Shown: in pieces, positions 41,736-62,945 of the stretch
Layout of the letters: the number at the start of each line of letters is the position of its first letter
How positions within the stretch are numbered: the stretch's first letter is position 1
From: Capsulimonas corticalis
Lineage (GTDB): Bacteria; Armatimonadota; Armatimonadia; Armatimonadales; Capsulimonadaceae
DNA: 64,000 bases
Assembly (NCBI RefSeq): GCF_003574315.2
Contig: NZ_AP025739.1
Location: forward strand, 1,984,001-2,048,000
Reading direction: 5' to 3'
The notes under the pieces: generated by a model
The model's input: the letters and a program-made list of their open reading frames with translations, nothing else
Told to the model about the DNA's origin: nothing
Databases searched by the model: none
Program-made: the position numbers and the translations under genes

Positions 41736-41809
41736 ATTAACCAAGACGATTCAGAGCGTGAAAGATGCTTTGCGTACGACGTTTTGACGGTCCGGAAGAA
41801 AGAACGGTT

Positions 41810-42802
41810 ATGACATCGCGTATCCTGGAACAGCGCGGCAGCCAAAGCGAAGAACTCTTTAAGGCGCTCGCCTCCGATACCCGGCTCAAGATCATCGATC
41901 TGCTGGCCGAGCGCGAGATGAATATCAACGAGCTGCGGCAGGCGCTGGGGATCGCCCCCCCGAGCGTCTCCAAGCACGTTCAGATCCTGGAGCAGGCGGG
42001 CCTGGTCACCAGTGAATATATGTCCGGGGAGCAGGGGACACAGAAGCGATGCAAGCTGCGCTATGACCGCCTGATCATCTCTCTGGACTCGATGGAGGTT
42101 CCGGACGGGCAGATCGAAGAGTCGGAGATGCCGATTGGAATGTATACATTCGCGCACCCGACCTCGACTTGCGGCATCGCCAGCCGGGAGAAAATGATCG
42201 GCTTCTACGATGAGCCGCAGTCATTCCTGCTGCCCGAGCGGGCGCAGGCGCAGATCTTGTGGATGGCGGAGGGGTTTGTCGAGTACGTGTTTCCCAACAC
42301 CGTGCCCTCGACCATGGAGATCCAGCGCGTCGACCTGACCATGGAAATCTGCTCCGAGTGCCCGGACTATAACAACGATTACCCCTCCGACATCACGCTT
42401 TGGATCAACGGCGTGGAGATCGGCGATTGGACGTCGCCCGGCGATCTGGGCGGCAAGCGGGGACGTCTCAACCCGGCCTGGTGGAACGACCACGACACCC
42501 AGCACGGACTGCTCAAGGTGTGGTCGGTGGACAACCAGGGCTCCTCGGTGGACGGAATGGCGGTCTCGGATAAGTCGATCAAGGAGCTGATGATCGGCCT
42601 GCGCCAGCCCGTCACGGTGCGCATCGGGATCAAGCCCGACGCCGAGCATGTCGGCGGCTTCAACCTGTTCGGACGCGGCTTCGGCAATTACGAGCAGGAT
42701 CTGACGCTGCGCCTGCATTACAAACCGAAGGAAGCGCTCAAAGAAAAGAAGGCTATCAAAGAAGAGGAATCTCCCGCAAAGCAGTCGGGTGACGTAAAAT
42801 GA
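41810..42802 (+). CDS. ArsR-type HTH regulator with C-terminal sensor-like domain
   Basis: 330 aa from ATG 41810. Residues about 10-90 are an ArsR-type winged helix (LFKALASDTRLKIIDLLAER, INELRQALGIAPPSVSKHVQ). The rest is a beta-rich domain (FVEYVFPNTVPSTMEIQRVD, LTMEICSECPDYNNDYPSDI, TLWINGVEIGDWTSPGDLGG, FNLFGRGFGNYEQDL) found in regulators encoded beside arabinofuranosidase or xylosidase genes in other bacteria (recalled, not searched). Probably senses a sugar or cell-wall product and controls the genes that follow. The basic, Lys-rich end (KEALKEKKAIKEEES) is disordered. Confidence 0.88.
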   Translation: MTSRILEQRGSQSEELFKALASDTRLKIIDLLAEREMNINELRQALGIAPPSVSKHVQILEQAGLVTSEYMSGEQGTQKRCKLRYDRLIISLDSMEVPDGQIEESEMPIGMYTFAHPTSTCGIASREKMIGFYDEPQSFLLPERAQAQILWMAEGFVEYVFPNTVPSTMEIQRVDLTMEICSECPDYNNDYPSDITLWINGVEIGDWTSPGDLGGKRGRLNPAWWNDHDTQHGLLKVWSVDNQGSSVDGMAVSDKSIKELMIGLRQPVTVRIGIKPDAEHVGGFNLFGRGFGNYEQDLTLRLHYKPKEALKEKKAIKEEESPAKQSGDVK

Positions 42803-42812
42803 AAGGAGTGAG

Positions 42813-43001
42813 ATGATTAATACAGAGCCAAGGCGCTCCGCGCCGCCCTGGGTCGCCGCCGCGGTCATTGTCGTTGCCCTTTTGGCGATCGTTCTCTATG
42901 CGGTCCATGTGCTGCGCCCTCAGGCGCCGAACAGCGATCTGAAGACGCCGAGTTCCTATCCCAAGCAAGGGGCCGCCCCATCTGCGCCCGTAGCTCATTG
43001 A
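42813..43001 (+). CDS. Small single-TM protein
   Basis: 62 aa, ATG with AAAGGAG four bases upstream and only ten bases after the regulator stop, so translation in an operon is likely. One TM helix (WVAAAVIVVALLAIVLYAVH) after a short basic, Pro-rich N-terminus; outside tail rich in Pro and Ser. Unknown role. Confidence 0.75.
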   Translation: MINTEPRRSAPPWVAAAVIVVALLAIVLYAVHVLRPQAPNSDLKTPSSYPKQGAAPSAPVAH

Positions 43002-43043
43002 GCTCGGAAAGGAGGCCGTTCCGCGCCGGAACGGATCTCATCC

Positions 43044-43175
43044 ATGAAAATCTCGCCAAAAACCCTCCATGGTTTGACATGGATTGAGCCCATCATTACT
43101 GTTGCTTCCGTTGCGATCTTTACAAAGCGTCCGGTCGCCATGGCGATGGCGCATCTGGGCCAGAGGTATCAATGA
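43044..43175 (+). CDS. Short upstream ORF of 43 aa coupled to the GH39 gene
   Basis: Begins MKISPKTLHGLTWIEP and ends QRYQ; its TGA overlaps the GH39 ATG (ATGA, 43172-43175). Below the usual length limit for gene callers. A strong AAAGGAGG (43008-43015) lies 28 nt before its ATG, but an 8-bp hairpin (CCGTTCCG/CGGAACGG, 43016-43034) stands between, so if the hairpin forms the spacing becomes about 9 nt. It may be a leader peptide that controls or couples GH39 translation; no family. Confidence 0.45.
   Translation: MKISPKTLHGLTWIEPIITVASVAIFTKRPVAMAMAHLGQRYQ
43074..43102 (+). promoter_or_regulatory. Internal promoter before the GH39 gene
   Basis: TTGACA (43074-43079), 17-nt spacer, TACTGT (43097-43102), within the short ORF. 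Predicted start near 43109 gives a leader of about 63 nt before the GH39 ATG. Confidence 0.5.
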
Positions 43176-43231
43176 ACACGCGTCCTTGGTCGCGGGGACT
43201 GCGGACGCTTTCAGCGTCCGCAGTCCTTTTT
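43126..43231 (+). promoter_or_regulatory. Candidate attenuator across the GH39 start: antiterminator and intragenic terminator
   Basis: A 14-bp perfect stem, GGACTGCGGACGCT/AGCGTCCGCAGTCC (43196-43209, 43213-43226), 3-nt loop, with TTTTT directly after it (43227-43231): a textbook terminator 24 nt inside the GH39 coding sequence, in the signal-peptide codons. The leader word AGCGTCCG at 43126-43133 is the exact complement of the terminator's 5' arm (CGGACGCT, 43202-43209), so it could form an antiterminator. GCGTCC at 43180-43185 is a second, shorter competitor. Confidence 0.55.
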
Positions 43232-45061
43232 CTGGCGTCGATGTCTGCGCACGCGCAGACATTTCACGTGGACTTCTCAAAAGAAAGCGGCCCGCCGCTG
43301 CTCAAGACCAAGTTCGGCGTCTATCAAACGCCGTTCTTTTTTAAGACCAGCCCGCCGTCGGCGTTCGATATGACCGGACTGCTTCGAGAGGCGGGAGTTC
43401 AGGATCTGCGCTATGAGATGGCCTGGGGCAAGTCCGACGCCTACGCCTACGACCAGATCAGCGGCTCGGCGGCGGATCCACGGATCGACTTCTCGCGCCT
43501 CGATCCGTTTCTCGGGCAGCTCGCGCGCGCAGGCGTCACGCCCCTTCTGGCGATGACTTACGATCCGCTGCCCCTCAAGACGGGGACGGATTGGCAGCGC
43601 TGGAAGGATGCGCCGAGCGATCTGGCCGCCTGGGGCCAGATCAACCGTCGCTACGCGGAGCACTACCGGGGGCTGGGGCTGCGAGCGCCCTTTTACGAGA
43701 TGTGGAACGAGCCTGACCTGCCCGGCGACGGCGGCAAAGTCTTCTTCAACGGCGGTCCGGAGGATTATGGCCGCGTGGCCCGCGCCGGCCTGGCGGGCGT
43801 TCACGCGGGCGATCCAGACGCGCACGCCGGCGGCCCGGCCATGGCGTACGATGCAGGCTACGCCCGGTCGATCCTCTCGGATCCCATCGACTTCATCTCC
43901 GTTCACGCCTACAACAACTTTCCCATCCAGGTCGGCGCCATCGCGCGGGGCGCGGTCAAAGACCGCCCGGACCTGCCGATCCTGCTGACCGAGTATGCGT
44001 CCTTTACGGAGTTCGGTCTCCAAAAGCCCAACAGCCGAAGCGTGGCCGCCGAACGCTTTTTCCGAGATGCCCGGGGCCTGCTGACGTATTCGGACACGCC
44101 GAAAGTCTACTGGGCGCAGTGGATCGACGACGACCTGGGCATGGTCACCCACGATCTGCACCGGAAAGCGCTCTTCCATGCATTCCAGATTTATCAGACG
44201 ATGCTGCCCGTGGACCGCAGCCCGGTCAGCCCGGACGGGCGGGATGGAGTTGGGCTCCTGGCGGCCTCGGACGATCACAATGCTGGGGTGGTCCTCTGGA
44301 ACGAGAATACGTCTCCCAAGACCGTCACGGCGATCCTGGACAAGCTTCCCTTTGCGAAGGGCGCGCTCCGCGTGTACCGAATCGACGCCGCCCATGCGAG
44401 TTATGTCGACGACCCCGCGCACGAAGCGCTGGCCGTCGAAACCACTCAGTCGCTCACGTCTTCAGGCGCGTCATGGACCGGGGAGATCCCCGGAGAAGGC
44501 GTCGTCTTCCTGCGAATTTCGGACGGCGCCGGTCAATCCCTGCTTCGCCCGGCGTCCCTCGGGACGTTCGTCAAAAGCCTGTACTGGTTCCCGGACCGGA
44601 CGACCGATGGCTGGGCGGATTTTGACCCACAGACATCGATTGCGCGTCTGGGCATGGGCGGCCGCGCCATGGGGATCCAGCAGATCGGCGCCGTGATCGA
44701 CCGGCCCGCTCCTCGGTGGCGCGTCCAGGTCCGCCGTCGCGGCCCGTTCGTCCCGCAGAGCGGCAACGCCTTATTCGCCTTGCGGCTGGATTACGGCTCA
44801 AAGCGCGGCGGCTACAGCAAAAGCATTCTGTGGCGCGACGACTCCCGCCAAACCGTCCGGACTTCGGCGTTTCCCTGGGGCCGGAAAACGACGACGCCAG
44901 ACGTGCTGCATGTGGAGAAGGCCCTGCGTACGGGCAAGGCCTTCGAGATCAGTGTCGCCCGGGAAGCCCCAGCAGACTGGAGCCACCGCGTTCTGGTGAC
45001 GCCGATTCTGGAGGACATGGGAGCCGGCTCGCAAGTCAGGATCATTTTGAAGGCGATGTGA
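43172..45061 (+). CDS. Secreted GH39-type glycosidase (xylosidase-like)
   Basis: 629 aa. Signal peptide LRTLSASAVLFLASMSAHAQ. A (beta/alpha)8 catalytic domain: LLREAGVQDLRYEMAWG, YEMWNEPDLPGDGGKVFFNG with acid/base E180, DFISVHAYNNFPIQVG, and LPILLTEYASFTEFG with nucleophile E274; a C-terminal beta-sandwich follows. Matches GH39 beta-xylosidase/iduronidase-like enzymes, which release xylose or related sugars from the ends of xylan side chains. Last of the regulator, small TM, short ORF, GH39 set. The reading frame runs through the hairpin described as an attenuator. Confidence 0.88.
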   Translation: MNTRPWSRGLRTLSASAVLFLASMSAHAQTFHVDFSKESGPPLLKTKFGVYQTPFFFKTSPPSAFDMTGLLREAGVQDLRYEMAWGKSDAYAYDQISGSAADPRIDFSRLDPFLGQLARAGVTPLLAMTYDPLPLKTGTDWQRWKDAPSDLAAWGQINRRYAEHYRGLGLRAPFYEMWNEPDLPGDGGKVFFNGGPEDYGRVARAGLAGVHAGDPDAHAGGPAMAYDAGYARSILSDPIDFISVHAYNNFPIQVGAIARGAVKDRPDLPILLTEYASFTEFGLQKPNSRSVAAERFFRDARGLLTYSDTPKVYWAQWIDDDLGMVTHDLHRKALFHAFQIYQTMLPVDRSPVSPDGRDGVGLLAASDDHNAGVVLWNENTSPKTVTAILDKLPFAKGALRVYRIDAAHASYVDDPAHEALAVETTQSLTSSGASWTGEIPGEGVVFLRISDGAGQSLLRPASLGTFVKSLYWFPDRTTDGWADFDPQTSIARLGMGGRAMGIQQIGAVIDRPAPRWRVQVRRRGPFVPQSGNALFALRLDYGSKRGGYSKSILWRDDSRQTVRTSAFPWGRKTTTPDVLHVEKALRTGKAFEISVAREAPADWSHRVLVTPILEDMGAGSQVRIILKAM

Positions 45062-48822: not shown

Positions 48823-48866
48823 TGGTATACTATCGCCATATTGTGAAATAATTCACAATATGGCGA
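48823..48866 (+). promoter_or_regulatory. Extended -10 promoter with Rex/CRP-like palindromic operator
   Basis: TGG-TATACT extended -10 at 48823-48831 and then a perfect 34-bp palindrome (15-bp arms TCGCCATATTGTGAA/TTCACAATATGGCGA, 48833-48866, centre ATAA). The core TTGTGAAATAATTCACAA (48841-48858) equals the known Rex operator consensus TTGTGAAWWWWTTCACAA, and also matches the CRP consensus TGTGAnnnnnnTCACA. It covers the predicted start region, so a bound repressor would block transcription. About 40 bp before the CrtI-like ATG. Confidence 0.75.
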
Positions 48867-62880: not shown

Positions 62881-62896
62881 GTGTGTGGCTGGGATT

Positions 62897-62932
62897 AAGA
62901 GTCGCTGGCGGTTGAAACCGCCAGCGACTCTT
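62897..62932. terminator. Strong hairpin terminator between poxB and fetB
   Basis: Stem AAGAGTCGCTGGCGGTT/AACCGCCAGCGACTCTT, 15 or more base pairs with a tight loop. AGTCGCTGGC also begins the hairpin at 37853. Confidence 0.75.
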
Positions 62933-62945
62933 ATGCTGCGAATTC

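Follow-up and report, generated by a model that had tools for sequence, protein, structure and literature searches.

Ribosome-sensitive terminators within the coding part of leader peptides are known. In the pil1 locus of Streptococcus gallolyticus, ribosomes translating the leader peptide melt a premature terminator; a leader peptide that ends 39 bp upstream permits termination, which is prevented if the peptide ends within the hairpin or beside it (PMC3894217). In pyrBI-type attenuation (cited in PMC4824070 and PMC5021804), the terminator likewise lies within translated codons and is relieved by a close ribosome. For the tR2 terminator placed 30 bp past an AUG (W48 construct), the nearest parallel in experiments to the locus described here, translation cuts termination efficiency by only ~10%; a new ribosome seldom catches the polymerase within 100 nt, and termination is repressed when a ribosome reaches a stop codon that lies less than ~27 nt upstream of the hairpin (PMC4824070). 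A terminator in the signal-peptide codons of a main gene appears to be undescribed in the open-access literature, where we found no direct precedent for terminators in signal-peptide codons, a weak negative. Here we describe a candidate of this kind at the start of a gene for a secreted glycoside hydrolase of the GH39 family.

The gene lies in a window of 64,000 nucleotides, the whole stretch of DNA that was analysed (G000:C1:1984001-2048000), taken from a single-contig genome of 7.65 Mb; the background sample covered 2.4 Mb, or 31% of that genome. The GH39-family gene (43172..45061, + strand) encodes a protein of 629 aa (Pfam Glyco_hydro_39, PF01229, 2.7e-9), whose signal peptide, MNTRPWSRGLRTLSASAVLFLASMSAHA, occupies codons 1-28 and is of the normal Sec type as judged by eye. 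The first gene caller had placed the start at ATG 43241, owing to the slightly negative score (-3.9) of the signal-peptide codons. This start was rejected: a homologue from Granulicella, 47% identical, also carries a signal peptide, which ends at the same junction (AQTF..SF....KFGVYQTP, common to both proteins), and a good Shine-Dalgarno sequence, AGAGG (43162..43166, + strand, from the sequence), stands 5 nt before the ATG at 43172. Between 43088 and 43172, the GH39 frame contains no start codon other than 43172. Given 43172 as the correct start, the hairpin described here lies in coding sequence.

The hairpin begins 24 nt past the GH39 ATG. Its 5' arm, GGACTGCGGACGCT (43196..43209, + strand; codons 9-13), and its 3' arm, AGCGTCCGCAGTCC (43213..43226, + strand; codons 14-19), are 100% complementary and form a perfect 14-bp stem around a TTC loop (43210..43212, + strand, from the sequence), directly followed by a T5 tract (43227..43231, + strand; codons 19-20, Leu-Phe), the predicted 3' end of an aborted RNA of ~122 nt. 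This is the structure that an earlier note on this DNA had reported, and all of its coordinates were right. Codons 9-20 read GGA CTG CGG ACG CTT TCA GCG TCC GCA GTC CTT TTT, of which TCA (4%) and GCA (5%), both in the hairpin arm, are rare. A T-tract is present on the + side only, with none on the opposite strand, so that the hairpin points only in the direction of GH39. A simple hairpin scan missed this structure, probably since G-T pairs extended the stem into the T-tract. A second, perfect hairpin of 9 bp with the loop CACG (43241..43262, + strand; -12.8 kcal/mol) follows directly 3' of the terminator, in the region of signal-peptide cleavage, and has no U-tract.

The GH39 hairpin is of terminator grade, matching the strong intergenic terminators of this genome. 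T-tailed hairpins were scored by a d'Aubenton-Carafa type formula, which gave the GH39 hairpin (-27.8 kcal/mol) a score of 43.1. It was the only coding-sense hairpin in 1.6 Mb to score above 40, the runner-up reaching 23.2, and it ranks about 47th when set among the 2,177 T-tailed non-CDS hairpins, of which 57 score above 40 and 47 score higher than it does. Strong T-tailed hairpins stand mostly just past the ends of same-strand genes (107 of the 138 non-CDS hairpins at or below -22 kcal/mol lie within 150 nt after such an end), and therefore evidently serve as terminators here. The GH39 hairpin resembles intrinsic (Rho-independent) terminators, including predicted ORF-internal ones, in its stable, GC-rich perfect stem, its immediate U-tract and its strong-terminator score, but differs from them in that it sits in codons 9-20 of a secreted enzyme and not past a gene. 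Sense purine content is 50.1%, with no sign of the purine bias that has been linked to runaway transcription (PMC13323073). A mobile or REP/MITE-like repeated hairpin was rejected, as there is no second copy in the genome: the only match of the hairpin is itself, and the other matches are chance ones of at most 20 nt. Elsewhere in the genome, a REP-like-looking palindrome, CCCCCTCTCCCA-ATTY-TGGGAGAGGGGG, with similar flanks (CCGGGGGG / AGCMAGAG), was observed upstream of or between several genes (G000:C1:2216615, 2527007, 2658327, 2765599 and 947862).

The hairpin is non-random, well beyond chance. When the protein was kept constant and codons were sampled according to genome usage, none of 20,000 synonymous recodings of the first 32 GH39 codons produced a 14-bp stem, and 13 bp was reached once. 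Codon resampling is a lenient null here, because gene starts carry 2-5-fold more long stems than it predicts (for stems of at least 9 bp, 13 observed vs 4.3 expected), and a survey of gene starts is therefore the better control. Among 1,657 gene starts (2.4 Mb), no stem of 12 bp or more other than the GH39 hairpin occurred within the first 110 nt; the best stem was 8 bp at 29 starts, 9 bp at 14, 10 bp at three and 11 bp at two, followed by GH39 with 14 bp. All other 21 top genes listed in this survey lacked a T-tract after the stem. By tail extrapolation, an estimated ~0.1-0.2 stems of at least 14 bp are expected per 1,657 gene starts, and far fewer with a T-tract. The recodings, the gene-start survey and the terminator scores thus bear out the earlier claim that 14 perfect bp with T5 are unlikely by chance. 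Perfect stems of at least 14 bp in 1.6 Mb lay outside called genes in 61 of 62 cases, the GH39 stem being then counted outside owing to the 43241 start. Longer perfect inverted repeats occur in the window at 62896-62933 (18 bp, 2-nt loop) and 48833-48866 (15 bp, 4-nt loop). A genome-wide class of signal-peptide terminators was rejected: there was a modest, two-fold excess of weak ones (18 vs 9 expected at -12 kcal/mol), none in the set went past -20 kcal/mol, and no second strong case was found. One signal-peptide start, MMIHPKRFGAALALTAGAFLCALHPAHAQ at G000:C1:2447059, has a weaker 9-bp hairpin with T5 (-17.3 kcal/mol).

Upstream of GH39, a putative promoter, TTGACA-N17-TACTGT (43074..43102, + strand; TTGACA at 43074-43079, TACTGT at 43097-43102), predicts a transcription start at ~43109 and thus a 63-nt leader; the terminator would begin at +87 of the predicted RNA, and the length of ~122 nt holds if that RNA ends at 43231. 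The default promoter scan rejected this site, whose second hexamer has 3/6 matches. The promoter, also proposed in the earlier note, is nevertheless credible because the pattern is strongly enriched upstream of starts: TTGACA-N16-18-TANNNT occurs at 0.45/kb there (n=96, 2.4 Mb) vs 0.0021/kb in CDS, a ~200-fold difference in density. Six of 121 such promoters near a gene have a terminator-like hairpin (score >12) between the transcription start and ATG+150, and that of GH39 alone has a strong one (score >40). In having a promoter upstream and a terminator ahead of the functional gene product, the locus is laid out like a ribosome-mediated attenuator of the trp, pyrBI or pil1 kind.

We then considered what might relieve termination. 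It had been suggested that the leader word AGCGTCCG (43126..43133, + strand) could form an antiterminator with the 5' arm. The word is indeed the exact complement of 43202-43209, and in this the locus is like a trp-type switch, but the match is probably fortuitous: 1.8-3.1% of random genomic stretches of equal length have such an 8-nt match, which is not clearly beyond chance. The competing fold did not hold up either. When forced, the antiterminator reached -44.4 vs -60.9 kcal/mol, a cost of 16.5 kcal/mol, and in the model its helix was populated solely in RNAs ending at ~43212-43216, with P falling to 0.000-0.001 by 43220; the terminator helix had P 0.87 at an RNA end of 43220 and 0.986 at 43228. 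The antiterminator would thus be transient and is not of a stability comparable to that of the terminator, as in the classical pair of mutually exclusive structures. Unlike a trp-type switch, GH39 has a word of only 8 nt, which is uncompetitive by 16 kcal/mol, and no regulatory codons.

Folding of the leader was ordinary when compared with shuffles (z -1.5 for 67 nt, -0.8 for 87 nt). The GH39 Shine-Dalgarno was paired in the modelled nascent leader, and paired with the U-tract in the modelled read-through RNA; the modelled occlusion of the Shine-Dalgarno and ATG was largely lost if the RNA started one base later. A structured sensor leader was rejected, as the folding z is ordinary and the occlusion model-dependent. 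A known riboswitch, T-box or Rfam leader was also rejected, since no Rfam match for the locus reached the curated score (best 17.5 bits vs a cut-off of 74).

A second proposed gate was a 43-aa ORF (43044..43175, + strand), through which ribosome progress was to choose between structures. Its stop does overlap the GH39 ATG at 43172 (ATGA). The gating role itself was not supported: the ATG at 43044 lies 65 nt upstream of the predicted transcription start, so that the ORF encloses the promoter and the two cannot cooperate in one transcript; the codon score is neutral (-0.6), and no convincing relative was found. The ORF could matter solely on RNA reading in from the genes upstream, which are an ArsR-type winged-helix regulator gene (41765..42802, + strand; Pfam HTH_5, 2.6e-12; the start may be 41810 according to the gene caller) and an ORF for a small membrane protein of 62 aa (42813..43001, + strand). 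The latter is probably a real gene: a paralogue with 59% identity (E 5e-17) is encoded elsewhere in the genome. The 62-aa protein (..VLYAVHVLRPQAPNSDLK..) and this paralogue (G000:C1:1873551-1873718), which adjoins a gene that is prepilin-like (DUF1559 type) by its sequence, possibly represent a small protein family of the lineage. The stretch 43008-43046 contains a strong Shine-Dalgarno-like AAAGGAGG and, after it, a hairpin of 7-8 bp, CCGTTCC-GCGCC-GGAACGG (-11.5 kcal/mol); the ATG of the 43-aa ORF lies 9 nt past this hairpin, folding of which would give the Shine-Dalgarno and ATG a normal spacing.

Our leading reading, tentative and held at somewhat less than even confidence, is that the GH39 hairpin is an intrinsic terminator placed early within the gene and works as an attenuator sensitive to translation. 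RNA polymerase would start at ~43109, transcribe the leader, the ATG and the first 24 nt of coding sequence, and on reaching the 14-bp hairpin and U-tract would usually free the short RNA, making premature termination the default. Full-length mRNA would be made when a ribosome trails the polymerase closely enough to cover the 5' arm. Such relief would be rare from fresh initiation on the local transcript and easier on RNA that extends from the upstream ArsR and 62-aa genes; there, a ribosome translating the 43-aa ORF would halt 20 nt short of the hairpin and could reinitiate at the overlapping ATG. The tR2 and pil1 distances, when set against the 24-nt and 20-nt gaps here, suggest that early termination is the default and is partly relieved by a nearby ribosome. 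The tR2 formula with a 20-nt gap predicts an efficiency of 0.47-0.84 instead of 0.9, these being E. coli numbers applied to an unrelated bacterium; the ribosome-relief model as a whole transfers E. coli and streptococcal numbers in this way. Termination in vivo, its relief by translation and its exploitation by the cell are what we infer from the locus.

GH39 would resemble pil1 in its promoter, short leader and premature terminator, and the distance from ribosome stop to hairpin would decide the outcome, with 20 nt at GH39 vs 39 nt in the low state of pil1 and a stop within or close to the hairpin in its high state. It differs in that the terminator is inside the structural gene, there is no repeat-length switch, and the 43-aa ORF is off the local transcript. 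Compared with pyrBI-type attenuation, the terminator would again lie within translated codons and be relieved by a close ribosome, but the codons are those of a leader peptide there and of the main gene here, and no pause site was identified at GH39. The broader claim of the earlier note, that expression is gated after initiation, is thus plausible given a good terminator and promoter; the antiterminator and the small-ORF gate are not supported.

Conservation bears on the attenuator reading and on its main rival. A full-length GH39 protein is present in two other genomes among 19 of the order (33-38% identity), and further homologues, from the phylum and from outside it, share 30-47% identity; neither the 19 genomes of the order nor 291 genomes from the phylum contained a close orthologue. 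In distant homologues (the nearest 38-47% identical), the protein and signal peptide are kept and the hairpin arms are absent; none of the four with readable starts has a stem of at least 7 bp around the start. By sequence comparison, this absence weakly favours a lineage-specific or accidental feature. It does not refute function, because cis-elements rarely persist at such distances. Against an attenuator, then, the hairpin is absent from all homologues, distant as these are; a strong terminator acting by default would, in the absence of a sensor, do no more than cripple GH39; and no conserved or identifiable sensor was found, with no Rfam match at threshold, a leader fold within chance (z -1.5) and no gene support for the 43-aa ORF.

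The rival that survives best is that the hairpin has no regulatory role. Chance, or a template-switch (quasi-palindrome) mutation, would have produced the repeat within a signal peptide specific to the lineage, and any termination would be tolerated leakage, an account that we consider rather unlikely yet one to be weighed seriously; T5 would, on the same estimate, simply reflect the codons CTT TTT for Leu-Phe in the hydrophobic core. The general excess of gene-start hairpins over codon expectation shows a tendency of this genome toward inverted repeats, T-runs suit the Leu and Phe codons of signal peptides, long perfect stems without T-tracts exist in called CDS (e.g. 19 bp at G000:C1:5211411), and the hairpin is in no homologue. 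However, 14 bp, a 3-nt loop, an immediate T5 and an own promoter make a combination that is unique in the sample, and selection should act against a strong terminator that arose fortuitously at codon 19, one that a synonymous change easily breaks.

The same promoter and terminator could instead delimit a gene for a small RNA that overlaps the start of GH39 (promoter 43074-43102, RNA of ~122 nt, terminator 43196-43231), with GH39 mRNA made by read-through or from upstream. Their spacing and architecture are typical of small RNAs, and ORF-internal small RNAs are documented in E. coli (PMC7815308); the lack of an Rfam match at threshold, the ordinary leader fold and the properly spaced Shine-Dalgarno and ATG, through which the promoter also serves mRNA, make this improbable. 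Quite improbable, too, is a role of the hairpin in translation, in which it would slow early elongation or hide the Shine-Dalgarno and so pace signal-peptide synthesis: read-through RNA models do pair AGAGG with the U-tract, and the second 9-bp hairpin is next downstream, but such a role has no need for a 14-bp stem abutting T5, and Shine-Dalgarno pairing in the nascent leader hinges on the modelled 5' end. We give very little credence to an export- or translation-proofread attenuator, in which signal-peptide codons would double as a terminator and transcription would depend on prompt translation, perhaps export, of the nascent signal peptide.

The attenuator reading concerns one locus, which has so far shown no conservation. 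Should the hairpin work, the same piece of DNA would encode an enzyme's export signal and also the signal that stops the enzyme's own message. The locus would then offer a natural test of the idea, suggested by plasmid experiments, that terminators located in the first 100 nt of a gene escape control by ribosomes, and would mean that attenuator searches confined to untranslated leaders miss intragenic cases.
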